From: a virus
IMG/VR virus record: IMGVR_UViG_3300017989_000057
Coordinates: 62,001-126,000 of that record
DNA length: 64,000 bases
Strand: one strand, 5' to 3'
The notes under the pieces were generated by a model. That model was not told the DNA's origin. It made no database searches and saw only the letters and a program-made list of their open reading frames with translations. Positions 27,663 to 45,443 of the stretch are shown here, one piece after another (the stretch's first letter is position 1; each line of letters opens with the position of its first letter). The position numbers and the translations under genes are program-made.

Positions 27663-28841
27663 TTATGCCTCCAGGAGTTCTCTTGCTATCGCACCTACTC
27701 GTTGGTAACTGAAGTTGGCAGCGCGTTCGCGGGCCGCTTTCTGCCGTCGATCTATCGATTCCTCATTCCATTCTTTGTAGGCTTGCCTCATGCAGTGGAT
27801 CAGGTGTTCCATGTCTGGATCGAACCATAGTTCGTCGCCAGTGTAAAGGTCTGGGAAACTGTCTGTGTGTCCGAAACATGGCGTCAGTTGTCCTCTGACC
27901 AACCAGCCACAATCAATCTCACCCGGCCACTTGAATCTGCGGGTCTCTGGTTCCCAGTATTCCGCAGCCTGTGGATACGTCAATTCCGGGAATGATCCCC
28001 AGTTGCTAAGTATTACTGGATTGCCAAACCCCATTGCGTCATGCGCCGGAATGCCCCAGGCTTCACCATGGCTCGCCAAAACGAAAACGTCGCAAGCTAC
28101 GTGAAGTTGATCAAGCTTCTGATCCGGCAGGAAATCGGTGATACAAGCTACGGGTGGATAGTACGGATGTCGGACATATGTGTGCAACGACTTTTTCACG
28201 TCGTCGATTGTTGACCGCAACAATTCGGTTGCTTCATCCGGGGATTTGCCAGGGACGCTGGTTTTGATGACGAGTGCCACATCGTCCCTGAGACTGAATG
28301 CTGTGTAGAACGCCCTCAAGACCGCTACCAGATTCTTGCGACGAGTCATCTCTCCGACCACATAAAACACGCACTTGTTTTTGAGCTTCTTGACTTCCAG
28401 CGGTGGAGGGGGATTGTCAAATCTAGTCGTGTCACAAGCACATGGGAAAATCTTAACTGGCACAGAGACATTGCTATCCTTCACTGCTTGGGCATTCTGT
28501 ATCGATGGCACCCATATTTCGTCCATCAGATTACAACAGTGTCCCCAATTCGACCTGCTAAAGTGGGTCGTTTCCCAGTCGAACATGCCTATGTTTCTAA
28601 CACCAGCCTTGTATTCGAACTGGTGCGGCAATACGTGCTGAACGACAACATCCACGTTGTCGGTTGTTTTACGTTCAAGGTGCTCAACTCTCTTGGCCAG
28701 TTCATGGTTGCTATGCGGAGACAGTTTGATAGCTCTCGCTACGACATCTATACCACCAGCTTCCATGGCGAGCATGTTATGAATAGCTTGGTTGGCATAG
28801 CCGGTACCATCACGATATACAGACAGGTATGCTACCTTCAT
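27663..28841 (-). CDS. Family 4-like (GT-B) glycosyltransferase
   Basis: This 392-aa protein begins in a TAATG overlap with the intein-containing glycosyltransferase gene. The N-terminus M-K-V-A-Y-L-S-V-Y-R-D-G-T-G-Y matches the glycine-rich acceptor-domain loop. The C-terminal half has V-F-V-L-A-S-H-G-E-A-W-G-I-P, then A-M-G-F-G-N-P-V-I-L, the donor-binding region. Y-V-V-G-E-M-T-R-R-K-N-L marks the start of the second Rossmann domain. Its size is normal for the family. Donor and acceptor are unknown. Confidence 0.87.
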   Translation of the reverse strand: MKVAYLSVYRDGTGYANQAIHNMLAMEAGGIDVVARAIKLSPHSNHELAKRVEHLERKTTDNVDVVVQHVLPHQFEYKAGVRNIGMFDWETTHFSRSNWGHCCNLMDEIWVPSIQNAQAVKDSNVSVPVKIFPCACDTTRFDNPPPPLEVKKLKNKCVFYVVGEMTRRKNLVAVLRAFYTAFSLRDDVALVIKTSVPGKSPDEATELLRSTIDDVKKSLHTYVRHPYYPPVACITDFLPDQKLDQLHVACDVFVLASHGEAWGIPAHDAMGFGNPVILSNWGSFPELTYPQAAEYWEPETRRFKWPGEIDCGWLVRGQLTPCFGHTDSFPDLYTGDELWFDPDMEHLIHCMRQAYKEWNEESIDRRQKAARERAANFSYQRVGAIARELLEA

Positions 28842-31720
28842 TATATCACCGTCACGTTTACTTGGTCCAGGGTCTCGCGTTTCAGGGATGCCAAGCGTTT
28901 TTCTTCGACGGCATTCGCCTGTTGTACCATCCCAACGAAGTGATCGACAAAATCTTTTCGGTTAAATGGGACACGTCGATCGCCAACGGTTTTTGAACCA
29001 CTATTTAGGGACTTGAGCCATTCACCAGCAAAGTGGGTGCGCAGCATGTCGGGGCGATTCCACACTTTGCCGATCACCCAATTGACAAATTCGCTATTGT
29101 TCATGTCGTTGCTTGGTGGTACTAAATTGGGATGATGGGCACGCGAGGTTGGGCACAGCCAAGTTGTTTGCTGATCCTTGATGGCGGTTTCACGTATGAC
29201 TTGACCCCAGATAGCAGCAGTCCTCTCCCACCCACGACGACGCATCGGCTGGTCTTGTCCGTAGGTCGGGACCGCTTCCTCGATGTACGCCCTGGTCTGC
29301 CTTGCTTTTTCGTCTCGCACAGCTTCACTTTGTTTAAGGAATCGATCCAGCTTGCTAACAAAATCGGTGTTGCTTGGCAGTGCTCGTCTTTGCTCCGTTT
29401 CGATAATGGCTTCCCAGAAGAATCTCTCAACCTCGATCGGGATCGCTGTTGGACTATCCAGATGATCTTCCATCGCCGAGTAGCGGACAGCCATTGTTGG
29501 CACACCACACGCCTGGGCTTCTGTCAGCGGCATTCCCCACCCCTCGCAGATGGAATACTGGACATACAGGTCGAACGTCTTCATAATATCAGCCAAGACG
29601 TTACGAGGACATGAATGGTTGGCGTTGGGCGGATGCGCTGCTAGCTTGCCACACTTACGACACACCATCATTTCGCCAGAGAAGAAAGATGGATAGGCAG
29701 TCTGGCAATTGCTGCACAGATAGGTCATGATTACCTTGTTCCCGATTTTGAAGTCTCGGATAGCTTTGCCGATGTCATACCCAACATCCGGGTAGCTGGT
29801 GTGCAAATACAGGAAAGTGCGTCGCGCCAGGTCTACATGCCCCTTGCTTTTCGATTGGTGCAACCACTTGCCGAAAGCCTCGATCAGATCGTAATACAGC
29901 TTACGTTTTTGGTTTCTCATGACCGTACCCACAATTAACGATGTGGGATCGATACCGAGCCGAGCCTTGTGTTGCCGTTTGTCCTCTGGTGGCTTGAACA
30001 TTTCGAGATCGGCACCTGGGGATGCGATTGTGACCAGATCGGTGCCACGTCTACCAGTTCGCTTCAGAAGGTCCATTCCATATTCGGAGTACGTAAGGAT
30101 GCGGTCGCACTGACGATATGAGTCCAGCCATAATTCTCGTTGTGGTTCACCGTCAATAGTCGGCATCCAGATAAATGAGAAATTCTGACGGAAAGGCGAA
30201 CGCAGAACAAATTCGTCCATCCACCAGTCTCGAATTCCGCAGTTATGTACAGCAAATCCTGTCACATAGCTATTATCATTTTCTACTTCTAAATTATATA
30301 CTTGACCTCTGTATGGTTCTGTTCTTACTCTTCGAATTGGAACAATAATGTAATTCTCATTTATCCATCCGACACTCCCTTTGTCTATCCATTTGGGGTT
30401 ATCCGATTTTCTCGAAGGTAATTCAAAATGTTTGGTAATAAACCCATGAGCAATACGTGCGTATTGTCCATAACATTCAATTTCAAATGATGTGGGCTTA
30501 TTAAGTTTTCTGGCAATAGATGTTTTTACACCCAATCTTGCAAATAATTGTCTGATTTGTCTTGCTAACACATTGGAGACAGTAGAACAAGAAACTGTAT
30601 CACTTTTATAACACCCATCTCCTTTTATATATCCACTAAGGAACTCTTCTAGGAATTTATCTCGTTGGGTAGTATACACAAATTCTGGTATATGTTTTTC
30701 GCGCGCATTTTCACCAAACCAATTTTTGAACAATTCTTCAAGTAATACAGAGTTGAATCTTACATTTGAACAATTCTTGTTAGTGAATACTTGACCGTCT
30801 ATTTTGAAATATTTTGACATCAATCGTAAAACATCTTCTATATATTCTTTCTCATTTACATTAAAAGAAAACTGCACACCCCTTCCTGAACCAGAACCTT
30901 CGGCACAATAATAACCTAGTAATCTACCAAAATCGCTTGAATACTGTATAAATTCAGGTATGCCGTTATCCCTTTCAAAGTTTTCATGACCTACTGGATA
31001 AGCAAATCCATCCTTGGTTATAAATTGCTTCAAAAAATGAGTAATTGAAATGTCTTGAGATGTCCAAACATTCGGCCTATATATAGGAATCAATACGTAG
31101 TCGCCTTGGCACAGGTCTTTCGCTTCTACAAATTCAGCATCTTCGGTGTTGTATCTCGACTGTATATCTCTTTGTTTCCATGTGCGTTTTTTGCTTTTTA
31201 TGGCTAGAATGGGATGGTTGGGCGTAAACGTATAACACTGATTGTCATTATGTGGGTATATTTTCACCACAATGCCATTGTGTTGACTGCGCATGGTACG
31301 AATAACTCGACATTCTTTCCCAGTGTGAGAAATAACCGTGTCACCTACACTGATATCTTCGATATTTCTAACACCGTTTGGCGTTTCGACTTTTGTTTCA
31401 GGAGGAACACAAACAATGTCAGGCTTGAAGTCCAGGCACACATCGTCGAATCGCCATTCGCCAAATTGGTTGGTCTGTTGCGACATGTACTTCTGCATTG
31501 CTTGCTGATTACTGCGAGCAGGTGCTACTGGATAAAACTTCCACGGCACTTGTTGACAACGTGGGTCGTCATCGTGGGCATAGCTTCCGAGTTCAGCAAT
31601 TTCGAACTCACCTGTGGCATGTAGTCGTTTGATCACCTCATGCCAATAGGTACTAAAACCAGTGGCGAGGAAGTTTGCTTCACCGATGAACAAAACGCGA
31701 CGTTTGCGGTCAGATTCCAT
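28841..31720 (-). CDS. GT-B glycosyltransferase interrupted by an intein
   Basis: This is a 959-aa precursor. ATG 31720 is chosen because GGAG lies five bases upstream; a GTG two codons earlier does not fit. Residues 104-493 are an intein, and splicing would give a 569-aa enzyme joined ...P-D-I-V/C-G-I-R-D-W-W-M-D.... The extein carries I-G-E-A-N-F-L-A-T-G-F at the N-terminus and C-E-G-W-G-M-P-L-T-E (E-x7-E) in the donor domain. Between these lies a four-cysteine zinc ribbon (C-S-N-C ... C-R-K-C). The insertion is next to the conserved W-W-M-D segment. Its neighbours are other glycosyltransferases. Confidence 0.9.
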   Translation of the reverse strand: MESDRKRRVLFIGEANFLATGFSTYWHEVIKRLHATGEFEIAELGSYAHDDDPRCQQVPWKFYPVAPARSNQQAMQKYMSQQTNQFGEWRFDDVCLDFKPDIVCVPPETKVETPNGVRNIEDISVGDTVISHTGKECRVIRTMRSQHNGIVVKIYPHNDNQCYTFTPNHPILAIKSKKRTWKQRDIQSRYNTEDAEFVEAKDLCQGDYVLIPIYRPNVWTSQDISITHFLKQFITKDGFAYPVGHENFERDNGIPEFIQYSSDFGRLLGYYCAEGSGSGRGVQFSFNVNEKEYIEDVLRLMSKYFKIDGQVFTNKNCSNVRFNSVLLEELFKNWFGENAREKHIPEFVYTTQRDKFLEEFLSGYIKGDGCYKSDTVSCSTVSNVLARQIRQLFARLGVKTSIARKLNKPTSFEIECYGQYARIAHGFITKHFELPSRKSDNPKWIDKGSVGWINENYIIVPIRRVRTEPYRGQVYNLEVENDNSYVTGFAVHNCGIRDWWMDEFVLRSPFRQNFSFIWMPTIDGEPQRELWLDSYRQCDRILTYSEYGMDLLKRTGRRGTDLVTIASPGADLEMFKPPEDKRQHKARLGIDPTSLIVGTVMRNQKRKLYYDLIEAFGKWLHQSKSKGHVDLARRTFLYLHTSYPDVGYDIGKAIRDFKIGNKVIMTYLCSNCQTAYPSFFSGEMMVCRKCGKLAAHPPNANHSCPRNVLADIMKTFDLYVQYSICEGWGMPLTEAQACGVPTMAVRYSAMEDHLDSPTAIPIEVERFFWEAIIETEQRRALPSNTDFVSKLDRFLKQSEAVRDEKARQTRAYIEEAVPTYGQDQPMRRRGWERTAAIWGQVIRETAIKDQQTTWLCPTSRAHHPNLVPPSNDMNNSEFVNWVIGKVWNRPDMLRTHFAGEWLKSLNSGSKTVGDRRVPFNRKDFVDHFVGMVQQANAVEEKRLASLKRETLDQVNVTVI
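30242..31411 (-). other. Full-length intein with LAGLIDADG homing endonuclease
   Basis: The 390-residue element begins with Cys (C-V-P-P-E-T-K-V, block A) and has T-F-T-P-N-H-P as block B, with the T-x-x-H layout. It ends S-Y-V-T-G-F-A-V-H-N followed by extein Cys (block G with His-Asn/Cys), so all residues for class 1 splicing are present. Two dodecapeptide motifs, L-L-G-Y-Y-C-A-E-G and F-L-S-G-Y-I-K-G-D-G, carry acidic catalytic residues at matching positions. This implies an intact endonuclease. The DNA is much more AT-rich than the flanking extein, consistent with recent arrival. Confidence 0.95.
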
Positions 31721-32297
31721 AACCACTCCGTGACAGTTTGGGTCTCAGGCTTTTGGCCCTCGAATACCGTTGCTTCCGACTCAGGCCGAGATTATCAGAA
31801 GTCCCGCTGAACTTTGCCTGAAGAAAGGCCCGATCCTCCGCAGTCAAATCGCCAGAGGACAAAAGGTCATCAAGAACAGAAAACGGTTCTGACTCTCGCG
31901 TTGGCTCTTGAAATAGCATGTGCCAAGATTCCGCGAAGATGAGTGATCGTAGATGGGCAAGCGTGTTTAGGGTGATATTGAGTTCTTGACATATCTCACG
32001 CTCTGTATTGCCAGCGGCCAAGAGCATTTCGACTTTGTGTACCTGCTTTTTAACTCTACGCGGAGCAGACGCGGCGCACATCGCATCTAGGGCGGCGTTG
32101 CGCATTGTGTTGGCTATGGCCACAATGGCGTATGCCTGAAAATTGCGGTGATCATGTCCATCCCTGCTGATTTCTGCTAATGTAAGATGCCCGACTTGGA
32201 TGTAGTCTTCCTCATCGGCACAATTGCTGGGATAAACAGTCGCAATTTTTTTCGCCAAACAGGCAATGAATTGGTTTAGCGACTGCTTACGTTTCAT
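31710..32297 (-). CDS. Sigma-70-like factor (region 2 and C-terminal helix-turn-helix)
   Basis: This is a 195-aa protein. Residues ~25-75 resemble sigma region 2: an acidic D-E-E-D-Y-I-Q-V-G, then an F-Q-A-Y-A-I-V-A-I-A-N-T-M-R helix. Residues ~85-120 contain a helix-turn-helix-like unit (E-R-E-I-C-Q-E-L-N-I-T). The C-terminus is basic. It is smaller than an ECF sigma and lacks a textbook region 4, so it may be a divergent sigma or another DNA-binding regulator. It sits between SSB and the glycosyltransferases and could direct phage-specific transcription. Confidence 0.5.
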   Translation of the reverse strand: MKRKQSLNQFIACLAKKIATVYPSNCADEEDYIQVGHLTLAEISRDGHDHRNFQAYAIVAIANTMRNAALDAMCAASAPRRVKKQVHKVEMLLAAGNTEREICQELNITLNTLAHLRSLIFAESWHMLFQEPTRESEPFSVLDDLLSSGDLTAEDRAFLQAKFSGTSDNLGLSRKQRYSRAKSLRPKLSRSGYGI

Positions 32298-32802: not shown

Positions 32803-34650
32803 TTACATCAATTTTTGTATGTCGCGGATAATAAAACTGCCGTTCTTCTTCTGCCCGTAAATCAGACAGATCAAGTCATCCTTGCAAAATGCTTTCAGTC
32901 GTTCAAATACGTCAGGAAAAACAACCGCATGGTCGATTGAATAGGTCGAGTCGGATAGGGTCAAAAAGCACATCGGCTGACCCGGATTGCTTCCACGCTT
33001 GGTTTTTGTGTGCTTGACACCATCGATGATAGCACAAACTGCGATATCTTCGTTGTTGGGTGCCTTGGCAATCTCTAAGCAGGTGTGAGTCGCTAGACTG
33101 TCATCAGCGTCGTCTGCGGGAGAACACGACAGAGCTATCCCCAGGAAGTGCTTTTCTGCTGCCGCACTAGCCGTATTGCTGTCATCGAGGGGTGTTTCCA
33201 ACATCGCTGCTTTGGCCGCTACTATTCTTCGTCGGGCATCGTTATTGCATGGTGGCTTCACTACCACATCTTGGTACCCATTCTGAACCATCAACTCTTC
33301 GATCTGTTTCTTGGTGCGATCCCCCAGAGTGTCCAGCCAAGCCTGCTTTTCTTCTGGGGACGTGTACACGAATTTACTGTCCCCGTCCACGATACCGTCG
33401 AACGCAGAACCGGCTTGGTCGAGATACCCGACCGCTGCGGCCACCAGTTCTTTCTTGACCATTTGGCCCATCGTCTTCGTTTTTTCGCCGGGGGGCTGGG
33501 CCATCTGAACTAGAATCTCTTGGGTGGTCATAGCACCCTGTTGTAACTGGTCGAAAAAGTACACTTTCTCTTTATTTGTCAATCCTTTGACTTCAACTTT
33601 CTTGCCGGTGGCGTCGTGTGCGGTGGTGCCAAGAATGACTTCTAATTCTCGGACCATCTCGCTGCGACCCATTCCGTAGCAATCACAGGCCCCCGATTTG
33701 ATCAGGGCAATCCCAACATTCCTGTGGAAGTCTGGAACGGCTGCGAGGAAGCTGGCCCAAGTCTTCAGAGAGCCCGCTCCTGGCGTTGTAGAAGCCGCTG
33801 AGACGATCTTCTCGATGGCTGAGGCTCCGACACCCCTGACGTGCGCCAGGCCGAATGCTACGCCTTTCTGTGGTTCCTCGGTCATCTGGAAGTGGATGTT
33901 TCCACGGCGGATATCCGGGGGCAGAATGTCTACGCCGAACAGTCGGGCATCCTGTACCAGTTTATAAATTTCTTCCTTGGGATCACCTTTGTACTGGGAG
34001 TAGGTGAGGTAGCTGGTGAAAAATTCGTGTGGGAAGTGGCACTTTAACCACGCGGTTTGGTAGGCGATCATCCCGTAGCTGACGGCATGGCTTTTGTTAA
34101 ACGAGTATCTCTGGCATTTTTCGATCCAGCCGAAGATTTCTTCTGCCACACCACGGGCAATATTCCCGTGCTCCTGAGCACCTTTGACGAATTTGTTCTT
34201 CAGCTTTGCCATGAGTTCCGGCTTTTTCTTGCCGATGGCCTTCCGAAGTTCGTCGGCACTCTCGGGGCTGAAACCAGCGATATCTGTGGCGATACGGATG
34301 GCCTGCTCTTGGTAGACGAGGCAACCGTATGTGGGCTGGAGAATCGGCTTTAGAGATGGGTGTAGGTAGGATGGTTGCTTGCGACCGAATTTGATGTCAA
34401 CGTAGTCTTGTGTCATCCCGGCCTCAAGTGGACCTGGACGGAGAAGGGCTGTGAGCGCAGCAAGTTCCTCTAGGCTATCAGGTCGGACTCTCTTGGCCCA
34501 ATCCTGACCCAGTTTTTTTTCCAACTGGAAAACGCCCACCGTGTGGCCACCAGCGATCAGTCGCCATACAGCAGGACAATCCAGAGGGATATCGTTGATA
34601 CTAAATTTACCCTTCTCGACATTGCACTTGCAATTGGTGAACTCGATCAT
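32803..34650 (-). CDS. dnaE: DNA polymerase III alpha subunit, C-terminal half (fingers, HhH, OB)
   Basis: This 615-aa protein begins where bacterial DnaE enters the fingers region: I-P-L-D-C-P, V-G-V-F-Q-L-E, L-R-P-G-P-L-E-A-G-M, Y-G-C-L-V-Y-Q-E-Q-A and Y-S-F-N-K-S-H-A-V-S-Y-G are all hallmark blocks. A helix-hairpin-helix region follows near 265-310 and an OB-fold near 530-610. It has none of the palm aspartates; these lie in the gene at 43.1-45.4 kb. ATG 34650 is the first possible start, since an in-frame TGA lies six bases upstream. It follows a TATAAT by only five bases, so its mRNA could be nearly leaderless. It must pair with the N-half to polymerise DNA. Confidence 0.93.
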   Translation of the reverse strand: MIEFTNCKCNVEKGKFSINDIPLDCPAVWRLIAGGHTVGVFQLEKKLGQDWAKRVRPDSLEELAALTALLRPGPLEAGMTQDYVDIKFGRKQPSYLHPSLKPILQPTYGCLVYQEQAIRIATDIAGFSPESADELRKAIGKKKPELMAKLKNKFVKGAQEHGNIARGVAEEIFGWIEKCQRYSFNKSHAVSYGMIAYQTAWLKCHFPHEFFTSYLTYSQYKGDPKEEIYKLVQDARLFGVDILPPDIRRGNIHFQMTEEPQKGVAFGLAHVRGVGASAIEKIVSAASTTPGAGSLKTWASFLAAVPDFHRNVGIALIKSGACDCYGMGRSEMVRELEVILGTTAHDATGKKVEVKGLTNKEKVYFFDQLQQGAMTTQEILVQMAQPPGEKTKTMGQMVKKELVAAAVGYLDQAGSAFDGIVDGDSKFVYTSPEEKQAWLDTLGDRTKKQIEELMVQNGYQDVVVKPPCNNDARRRIVAAKAAMLETPLDDSNTASAAAEKHFLGIALSCSPADDADDSLATHTCLEIAKAPNNEDIAVCAIIDGVKHTKTKRGSNPGQPMCFLTLSDSTYSIDHAVVFPDVFERLKAFCKDDLICLIYGQKKNGSFIIRDIQKLM

Positions 34651-42756: not shown

Positions 42757-43117
42757 TTTCCATCCCCTTGTTTCGCTCGATGTTCACACACGCAGCCGTT
42801 TTACCCTTCCGGCCCGGTTTCACATCGTTAATAACCACACGCTGTCCTCTGGGTAAGTCCATAATCAGATGGTGATAGTAAAGCCCCGCTTCTCCTATCT
42901 GTTGTTCAGTCAGTTGTCGCAGACTCTCTGGCCGTCCCGTGGTCAGAACGACCGTATAGCCTTTGTAGGCCCACTGTTTGAACGCCTCTCTGGCCCCAGG
43001 CAGTAACTCACATGGGTTGGTCAGTATTTCAGCTATATCCCCGTGGTGCTTGAAAACGCAACCATCCAGATCGCAAAATACGGTCTTGATATATACAGCA
43101 TGATCAATCTGTGACAT
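42743..43117 (-). CDS. HAD-family phosphatase
   Basis: This 124-aa protein starts at 43117, supported by GAAGGA, and overlaps the polymerase N-half by 15 bp. V-F-C-D-L-D-G-C-V carries the nucleophile and acid aspartates (D-x-D), V-V-L-T-T-G-R-P-E-S the motif II Thr, a Lys lies in the G-R-K-G-K stretch, and V-V-I-N-D the last acidic motif. It resembles small phosphatases (KdsC/LcbF-like) in sugar-activation gene sets. It probably removes phosphate from an intermediate made by the adjacent aldolase-like enzyme. It is the first gene of the cassette lying between the two polymerase halves. Confidence 0.85.
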   Translation of the reverse strand: MSQIDHAVYIKTVFCDLDGCVFKHHGDIAEILTNPCELLPGAREAFKQWAYKGYTVVLTTGRPESLRQLTEQQIGEAGLYYHHLIMDLPRGQRVVINDVKPGRKGKTAACVNIERNKGMENVDI

Positions 43118-45443
43118 CGACCAATCCTTCGTCAAGAACCTCATCTTCGTCGGTGCCGTTTATCAAGTCCTGCGCTTTCCAGAGCTTGTCCAGGGCAACT
43201 ACTCCCAGGAAGTCAAACTTAACGGCACCCATATCCTCTGCATTGTACATCTCCAGACCCACCACGCGATCCTTATTTCGTGCATCATAGGCCAGCGGCA
43301 TAAATTCGACAATGGGTCTATCTGCGATGACGACTCCAGCCGCGTGCTTGGACTGAGATTTCTTGGTGCCCTCAATTCGCATGGCTTGATCAAACAACGG
43401 CTTAAACCACTCATACGCATCCTGGACCTGTTCCACATTGTGAACAGCCCACTGTAGAATGCCGTAGTCGTCACCCTGTTCGGCCCGTGCCTGCCGCAAC
43501 TCATCTGCGATGCTGGCTTCGTCGGGTATATACTGCGTTATGTCATTGCATAGGTCGTGCGGTGTCATGTTGATGTCGTCAGCGTCCTTACCCTCTTTCA
43601 CAGCCTTGACCTTCATCAAATGTCTGACTGTATCTGGGTGAGCCCGAAATACTTCCTTGAGAGCCGCTTTGCCTTGTAGGCGACCGAAGGTGATCATTTG
43701 GGCGACATATTCCTCTCCCCATCGTTCTTTGAGGTAGGCGATGACTTCGTTGCGGAACACAACTCCGATGTCGGTGTCGATATCCGGGAGGCTGATGTGT
43801 TCGTCATGGGTTTTGACCTTGCGGCTGACATCCAATTCGTCGCGGCCCGCCAGAGTCAGACCCAGCCCATAAGCCAAGTGTGAGTTCGATGGGTTTTCTG
43901 CTGGCTTGTCCTGGATCATATCGTACAGATACATCCACATACGAGGATTCTTCTCGTCGATCCATTCCACCTCTTCCCTCATCATGTCTGTGAATTCGAC
44001 CTTCCCCTGCTTCATCCGTCTGGCTAGGTGCGTAGCCACCGCCTTCCGCTCGGCATCTGTGTCACGAGTATGCAACATCTCAAAGTTGTCGGACATCCAT
44101 GACATGAAATCCGTCTGCCCGACATCAAAGTGGGGAGGGATATTCCTGCTCATATTGTAGAATCGTTCAAAGTACAGCCCGTATTCGATTGGATCGATGC
44201 CTGTAATTCCCGTCAGATAGTTGACCAGTGAGCCAGCACCAGAACCTCGCCCCTTACCTCGGGGGCCATTCCTTTCGTCCACAAAGCGGCACGCATCCCA
44301 CACGATAAGAAAGTAGTCAGCCAGTCCGGCTTCCATGATGACAATGAGTTCCCTCTGTAGGCGTTCCCAATAGGTTCGCTTCTGCTGTGCGTCGAGATGT
44401 GCCAATTTCGTCTTAGCACCCTCGATACATAGGTGTTTTAGATATTCATTCGAATCGAGGCCAAGGGTCTTTGACTCTTCGTTGGTGAAAATCGGGAGAT
44501 AAGGATTGTGGCCCAGAGATGAATATTCGATCTGATCAGCAATGTCTAGTGTGGTCTGTAGTTCTGCCTCGGTGAAGTGTTTTCTCATCTCGTCATAGGA
44601 CGGGATGTAGTACCTATCCGAAACCATGAAATCCATAACGTCGCCGGTCTGTTGCAGTTTGCGCTCCTGCTCTTCTTTGGTCGTGTGTAGCTGTGCATAC
44701 AACAAGAGTCTCTGGTCCTCAGCCTCTTGTTGCTTGCAATAGTGTGCATCGATGGTGGCTACGGTTGGTACTCCCGTTTCTTCACTGAGTTCCCGCAGAC
44801 ACTCGACGACCAGCGTTTGAATACCCATACCTTCATCTTGTAGCTCAAGATAATAGTTGCCCTTGCCGAATGTGGCTAGGTGCTTGTGGATGATAGCTTT
44901 GCCAACGTCCTTCCAGTTGGGTCGCAGATACTTCCTTGCCCCGCTGGCGTTGCCATTCCTGCCTGCTATGATTGCTGTACGAAAATCTGTAAACAATGCC
45001 ATCGGCAATTCGCCTGCGATACATGCGGTGAGGAAAATCAGATTGCCACGCTTGGCAAACGGGGCAATACCAGCGAGGTGGATACGTGGTCTGCGGTAGA
45101 AATAATCTGGTCTATTTGATTCGCTGACCAGAGCCATCAGGTCTTTGATTCCCTGATCGTTTCTGGCGAGAACAATTAGGTGGTGTCGCCTGTTGTTGTC
45201 AGAGTTCTTGATATCTGCCTCTTTTTCGCAGACATACATTTCACACCCGATAATGGGTTTGACTTTCTTTTTCTTGGCAGCATCATAGAAGACTTTCATG
45301 CCAGCAATATTGCCGTGGTCAGTCAGTGCGCACGCCGGTAACCCAAGCTCGGCACATCGGGCCACAATGTCCTTGGGCGAACAGAGTCCGTCCAATAGAC
45401 TGTAGAAACTGTGAACATGAAGGGGCGCATATGTCTTACTCAT
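43104..45443 (-). CDS. dnaE: DNA polymerase III alpha subunit, N-terminal half (PHP and palm)
   Basis: This is a 779-aa protein with GGAGG before its ATG. The PHP domain keeps all expected metal ligands: H9-x-H11, D42-H43, E68, H87/H88, C141 and D232-x-H234. An intact PHP suggests proofreading exonuclease activity. The palm has G-R-G-S-G-A-G-S near 399 and the catalytic aspartates D556 and D558 (P-D-I-D-T-D), with D744 in K-F-D-F-L-G. The chain stops 35 residues later in an acidic tail, before the fingers. Those are encoded separately at 32.8-34.65 kb. No split-intein sequence is seen at either break. Confidence 0.95.
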   Translation of the reverse strand: MSKTYAPLHVHSFYSLLDGLCSPKDIVARCAELGLPACALTDHGNIAGMKVFYDAAKKKKVKPIIGCEMYVCEKEADIKNSDNNRRHHLIVLARNDQGIKDLMALVSESNRPDYFYRRPRIHLAGIAPFAKRGNLIFLTACIAGELPMALFTDFRTAIIAGRNGNASGARKYLRPNWKDVGKAIIHKHLATFGKGNYYLELQDEGMGIQTLVVECLRELSEETGVPTVATIDAHYCKQQEAEDQRLLLYAQLHTTKEEQERKLQQTGDVMDFMVSDRYYIPSYDEMRKHFTEAELQTTLDIADQIEYSSLGHNPYLPIFTNEESKTLGLDSNEYLKHLCIEGAKTKLAHLDAQQKRTYWERLQRELIVIMEAGLADYFLIVWDACRFVDERNGPRGKGRGSGAGSLVNYLTGITGIDPIEYGLYFERFYNMSRNIPPHFDVGQTDFMSWMSDNFEMLHTRDTDAERKAVATHLARRMKQGKVEFTDMMREEVEWIDEKNPRMWMYLYDMIQDKPAENPSNSHLAYGLGLTLAGRDELDVSRKVKTHDEHISLPDIDTDIGVVFRNEVIAYLKERWGEEYVAQMITFGRLQGKAALKEVFRAHPDTVRHLMKVKAVKEGKDADDINMTPHDLCNDITQYIPDEASIADELRQARAEQGDDYGILQWAVHNVEQVQDAYEWFKPLFDQAMRIEGTKKSQSKHAAGVVIADRPIVEFMPLAYDARNKDRVVGLEMYNAEDMGAVKFDFLGVVALDKLWKAQDLINGTDEDEVLDEGLVDVTD

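Follow-up and report, generated by a model that had tools for sequence, protein, structure and literature searches.

A candidate mobile intein in a predicted GT-B glycosyltransferase of an uncultured tailed phage, with further insertion sites in the same gene family

The glycosyltransferase gene and its insert

The window, i.e., the whole 64,000-nucleotide stretch of DNA that was analysed, comprised bases 62001-126000 of the 160,681-base record G000. The gene set of G000 included a tail tape-measure protein, SSB, DnaB, a UvsX-like recombinase, a ribonucleotide reductase (RNR), and a Pol III-type polymerase, and was therefore that of a tailed phage. The terminase of one relative was only remotely related to those of cultured phages (Bacillus phage Slash, 27%). 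The intein-bearing gene was one of three consecutive glycosyltransferase genes, with nucleotide-sugar enzymes adjoining (Pfam). Its start was overlapped by a 195-aa ORF (window 31710-32297, minus strand) that was sigma-factor-like by eye and had no Pfam match.

The ORF was open through the insert (Table 1). Translation probably starts at the ATG at 31718-31720 rather than at the GTG at 31726: relatives aligned from the ATG at 31720, and a GGAG lay five bases upstream. Counted from this ATG the precursor was 959 aa long, and the joined exteins came to 569 aa, the remainder given in the preliminary description and the length found in most close relatives. That description had also placed a 390-aa intein at 30242-31411, which was exact to the base and needed no correction. 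The comparison with intein-free homologues that it had proposed, made with full-length genes in the same frame (L008-L011, L018 and others), showed an exact insertion. The intein was AT-rich against its host gene, as had been described (GC 0.358 vs. 0.507; third codon positions 0.27 vs. 0.55).

Table 1. Features of the glycosyltransferase gene and its intein, in window coordinates.
Feature	Position	Strand	Basis
Precursor ORF, predicted GT-B/GT4-like glycosyltransferase with intein	28841..31726	(-)	Open through insert; Pfam
N-extein, 103 aa, ends FKPDIV	31412..31720	(-)	Aligned with intein-free homologues
Intein, 390 aa, putative class 1, with LAGLIDADG endonuclease	30242..31411	(-)	Motifs, Pfam, predicted fold
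Cys1, block A nucleophile	31409..31411	(-)	Invariant in alignment of six inteins
Block B, T63-P-N-H66 (TxxH)	31214..31225	(-)	T63, H66 invariant in six-intein alignment
Endonuclease block C, LLGYYCAEG, acid E171	30896..30922	(-)	Aligned with PI-PkoII
Endonuclease block D, KHIP	30686..30697	(-)	Aligned with PI-PkoII KRIPEF
Endonuclease block E, LSGYIKGDG, acid D265	30614..30640	(-)	D265, G266 invariant in six-intein alignment
24-nt in-frame deletion point, second endonuclease subdomain	30494..30495	(-)	Versus G001 and G002 inteins
Block F with Asp379 (VYNLEVENDNSY)	30266..30301	(-)	D379 invariant in six-intein alignment
Block G, V-H-N, then Cys+1 (30239-30241)	30239..30250	(-)	H389, N390 invariant
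C-extein, 466 aa plus stop, begins CGIRDWWMDEF	28841..30241	(-)	
Zinc-ribbon-like insert, CxxC...CxxC	29651..29716	(-)	Four Cys invariant in 8 intein-free homologues
EX7E motif E-GWGMPLT-E plus preceding Cys; empty site d	29519..29548	(-)	MshA profile alignment

The insert ran from Cys1 through His389-Asn390 and was followed by Cys+1. Each element of a class 1 intein was present (Cys1, TxxH, the block F Asp, His-Asn, and the +1 nucleophile), and Cys1, Thr63, His66, Asp379, His389, and Asn390 were invariant in all six inteins of the glycosyltransferase family that were aligned. The two LAGLIDADG motifs each kept an acidic residue, and the sequence alignment with PI-PkoII spanned endonuclease blocks C, D, and E. 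Pfam matched LAGLIDADG_3 at 43.7 bits (cut-off 22.5); Intein_splicing, Hint_2, and Hom_end matched more weakly, the first two below their cut-offs. Foldseek matched the predicted structure (pLDDT 82.8) to TliVMA, PI-PkoII, and PI-SceI with E-values of 7e-21 to 1e-17, TliVMA and PI-SceI being the matches for the Hint fold. From its motifs the insert is thus read as a full-length intein of class 1 that would splice and, through a LAGLIDADG endonuclease with two motifs, may also cut.

The preliminary description had called the intein apparently intact. This was borne out for the splice residues and the LAGLIDADG motifs; the endonuclease, however, was eight residues shorter than in both close relatives. 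The missing residues (24 nt, in frame) followed block H and were retained in G001 and G002, so the loss is derived in G000; it sits between two CAC triplets. In the G000 model the deletion shortened the loop of a beta-hairpin (strands 298-302 and 308-314), which could weaken DNA recognition. With these residues gone, present cutting activity is uncertain and the intein may no longer home.

The extein matched Glycos_transf_1 at 31.5 bits (cut-off 26.4), and PHROG called the host enzyme a glycosyltransferase. The model of an intein-free homologue (L011, pLDDT 77) had a GT-B fold and matched MshA and 3oy2 with E-values of about 1e-14, and in the profile alignment the EX7E motif of the host enzyme was aligned with the ESFGLVAME stretch of MshA. 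The host is accordingly predicted to be a GT-B, GT4-like glycosyltransferase. The Pfam match and the start of the C-extein agreed with the preliminary assignment to a GT-B enzyme, with the insertion beside a W-W-M-D block. The zinc-ribbon-like insert is a mark of the family; the eight intein-free homologues compared were 38-73% identical to the first.

The C-extein had no matches in cultured phages; a more distant family member matched cultured-phage glycosyltransferases of only about 23% identity. A PDB sequence search with the N-domain, which holds the insertion site (site a below), gave nothing usable. From predicted strand ends, sites a, b, and c would lie near the acceptor cleft. No thymidylate-synthase-like enzyme, which would bear on a role in DNA glycosylation, was found in nine of the viruses. 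Some glycosyltransferase relatives that lacked an intein came from contigs assigned to Phycisphaerales, Verrucomicrobiales, and SAR202 genome bins (L098-L101), a weak hint at hosts; these contigs are possibly mis-binned phage.

Inteins across the gene family and in other genes

Leaving out G003, a near-copy of G002, 12 inteins were counted in the glycosyltransferase family; they occupied five positions and were spread over 11 distinct gene copies. Site a, DIV^C(G/S)IRDWWM, was occupied in G000, G001, G002 (and G003), and L093 (L006 and L093 being among the loci); site a2, two residues downstream, in L125; site b, FWM^CEF, in L012; and site c, NFTF^CAMPTIDGEP, in L005. Site d, QYS(I/V)^CEG(W/F/A/Y)G, lies directly before the first Glu of EX7E. 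It was empty in G000 and held another intein lineage in G001, G011, G012, G013, and L121 (loci L014, L015, L016, L017, and L121), so that a single G001 gene carried two inteins (a and d). These further sites and the eight-residue deletion went beyond the preliminary description.

Occupancy was patchy, with many close relatives lacking any intein. The preliminary description had supposed a homing target conserved in other phages, and this was upheld: the C(G/S)IRDWWM block was present and empty in many relatives (site a was empty in L011, L012, L015-L019, L085 and others), and site a also held an intein in a glycosyltransferase that was only distantly related (about 39-55% identical). The site-d inteins formed one clade and their host genes did not (AU p 0.006); that lineage has therefore spread too, or was lost many times. 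Judged from these comparisons, inteins gather in this gene family, a hot spot that appears to have been entered by several intein lineages.

An exclusive clade of site-a inteins was rejected (p 0.0003) because the L093 intein grouped with the a2 intein of L125; sites a plus a2 as a single clade were not rejected (p 0.25).

Eleven related records contained 36 intein junctions (checked by script). By host these were: DnaE (9), the glycosyltransferase described here (9), RNR (5), TerL (4), GDP-mannose dehydratase (3), RecA (2), DnaB (2), RNA ligase (1), and a metallophosphatase-like protein (1), the last named by eye and having no Pfam match. The 160-kb genome of G001 (IMGVR_UViG_3300014914_000003; L060-L063, L014) held 11 inteins in 8 ORFs; RNR, the C-terminal DnaE ORF, and the glycosyltransferase had two apiece. 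GDP-mannose 4,6-dehydratase had two intein sites (L077 5010-8234, L069 1099-3243), both in one G015 gene. Four intein models found no intein in G000 besides that at 30242-31411. A free-standing LAGLIDADG endonuclease gene was present in the relative G014 (L076 2028-2831).

In G000 the Pol III alpha (DnaE-type) polymerase was encoded in two pieces, ORFs on the minus strand at window 43104-45443 and 32803-34650 with about 8.5 kb between them. The break fell after the third catalytic Asp block (KFDFLG) and recurred in relatives (L061/L062, L066, L085); no split intein was found at the ends of the two ORFs. Several inteins of the DnaE C-terminal ORF (L062, L066, L068, L075) seemed by eye to have an endonuclease of HNH type rather than LAGLIDADG. 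The DnaE intein of L067 (173 aa) seemingly had no endonuclease, so large and mini forms would occur at one DnaE site.

A wider search with the intein alignment found unrelated viral glycosyltransferases with an intein inside an EX7E-type motif: L128 (EDGTPNP^CLE), L141 (EGFSVPT^CE), and L198 (PETS^CLALIE). In another unrelated viral glycosyltransferase (L136) the intein was in a linker region. Two nucleotide-sugar enzymes, L138 and L145, were also intein hosts. L124 resembled a GT-A enzyme by eye only, and Pfam named only its intein.

Transfer of the intein and competing readings

The G000 and G001 inteins were 95.4% identical in nucleotides (third positions 0.92, dN 0.025, dS 0.139), vs. 77.8% for the exteins, where third positions were near saturation (0.49). 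Across nine flanking or extein segments, third-position identity between G000 and G001 was 0.41-0.68. The intein was far more alike than all surrounding genes compared and therefore moved long after the two phages separated. These identities are taken to mean that it either passed from one of the G000 and G001 lineages to the other or reached each of them from a third. Recent homing, as suggested in the preliminary description from base composition, gained its support here; the GC contrast alone was weak evidence, because inteins in this family were almost always more AT-rich than the host gene. The extein GC3 of relatives was often about 0.2-0.4, and the GC3 of the intein would fit a lower-GC source such as these.

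The high-identity tract ended at most ~6 bp left and 27 bp right of the intein. A long co-conversion tract around the G000/G001 intein was sought and not found; textbook co-conversion tracts are longer than this. A shared tract that ends near the intein borders would be expected from homing, though these tracts are short. The signature points to mobility and would not identify the enzyme behind the transfer.

On the favoured reading, to which a probability of roughly 0.88 was assigned, an uncultured tailed phage carries a mobile, bifunctional intein of class 1 in its GT-B glycosyltransferase, a member of a gene family that is an intein hot spot. The gene would be translated from the ATG as one 959-aa precursor. 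Cys1, TxxH, the block F Asp, His-Asn, and Cys+1 would then splice the protein in the standard way, with a 569-aa glycosyltransferase and a free intein of 390 aa as products. During co-infection the LAGLIDADG domain would cut intein-free alleles at the DNA for FKPDIV/C(G/S)IRDWWM, and repair would copy the intein into the cut allele. Cutting is thus the presumed driver of transfer. Invasion at five positions may have arisen because conserved catalytic blocks offer conserved DNA targets together with strong selection for exact splicing.

It is possible, if doubtful, that the G000 intein still splices but carries a dead endonuclease, having come by homing or recombination and now being just carried along. 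The in-frame deletion in the second endonuclease subdomain, which neither close relative has, and the short co-conversion are in keeping with this, as is endonuclease decay in relatives: Gln replaces the catalytic acid in the site-b intein of L012, and the L017 intein at site d has a truncated first motif. G000 nevertheless retains block D and both LAGLIDADG motifs, acids included, and the dN/dS of about 0.18 for the intein in G000 vs. G001 agrees with constraint still acting on its whole length.

Conditional splicing, responsive to redox, zinc, or temperature, could time glycosyltransferase activity during infection. All sites are in conserved blocks and site d abuts EX7E, so that no activity would be expected before splicing; unrelated viruses have the hot spot again in this enzyme class; and conditional splicing has been documented in other inteins (reviewed in PMC5050341). 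Against these points, many close relatives have no intein, conserved DNA as a homing target accounts for the positions without regulation, and no sensor feature was found. This regulatory role is unlikely. An equally improbable broader version would make phage glycosylation enzymes a general intein-host class, their motifs (above all EX7E) homing hot spots, and splicing a switch by which some phages keep the glycosyltransferase inactive until a set point of infection.

Slightly less probable again is that the transfer seen between G000 and G001 came about by general phage recombination and not by homing. Tailed phages recombine freely, and the two glycosyltransferase genes were sisters in the extein tree. 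Recombination of this kind would have carried flanks too, yet the high-identity tract stops within ~30 bp of the intein borders, and several sites with several intein lineages in one gene favour targeted invasion. A broken gene, with the glycosyltransferase inactivated by the insert, or an assembly artefact that fuses two genomes could produce the sharp GC step at each border but can practically be dismissed, as there was no stop or frameshift, the borders were exact and in frame, the splice residues were conserved, and it is contradicted by independent contigs that have the same architecture but other extein DNA.

Comparison with known systems

The mechanism proposed is ordinary and the intein belongs to a known family; what could not be found reported were the host-enzyme class and the density of sites. 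No earlier report of a glycosyltransferase as an intein host was found in the open-access literature (a search that was not exhaustive, with InBase and subscription papers outside its scope). In this one gene, several lineages of intein, alleles with and without an insert, and endonucleases in decay together make a natural test set, and new inteins can be drawn from the clade, in which one 160-kb genome holds as many as 11.

PI-SceI (Sce VMA), PI-PkoII (KOD pol), and TliVMA have in common with the G000 intein the Hint fold, a nested two-motif LAGLIDADG endonuclease, Cys1, TxxH, the block F Asp, and His-Asn/Cys+1. The G000 intein differs in its glycosyltransferase host and its eight-residue deletion, and identity was only 11-16% in full-length structural alignments. 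Related intein sequences occur in cultured large tailed phages, among them the RNR intein of Tenacibaculum phages PTm1/PTm5; among the 40 matches listed identity was 29% at best, and no gene was annotated as a glycosyltransferase. For a phage intein in a nucleotide enzyme, that of CL131, splicing has been shown (PMC6293099). The spliced host enzyme is predicted to share the GT-B fold and EX7E with MshA (3c48/3c4q) and the chlorella virus 3oy2, from which it differs in identity (13-16%), its conserved zinc-ribbon-like insert, and its inteins.

A close parallel is TerL of mycobacteriophages, where one gene has many intein sites in catalytic motifs, patchy occupancy, and evidence of transfer (Kelley et al. 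2016, PMC5050341), as the glycosyltransferase gene does here. Every intein-bearing protein of the mycobacteriophages binds nucleic acid (PMC5050341), which accords with the preliminary statement that inteins sit mostly in replication and nucleotide enzymes, whereas the host described here is a carbohydrate enzyme. Inteins in glycosyltransferases speak against a general rule that would place phage inteins in nucleic-acid-binding proteins. Intein position has so far been explained by the role of the host (nucleic-acid or ATP binding, possible regulation) or by a conserved DNA target; the five positions, together with the EX7E-type hits elsewhere, favour target conservation and selection for exact excision over a link to nucleic acid.
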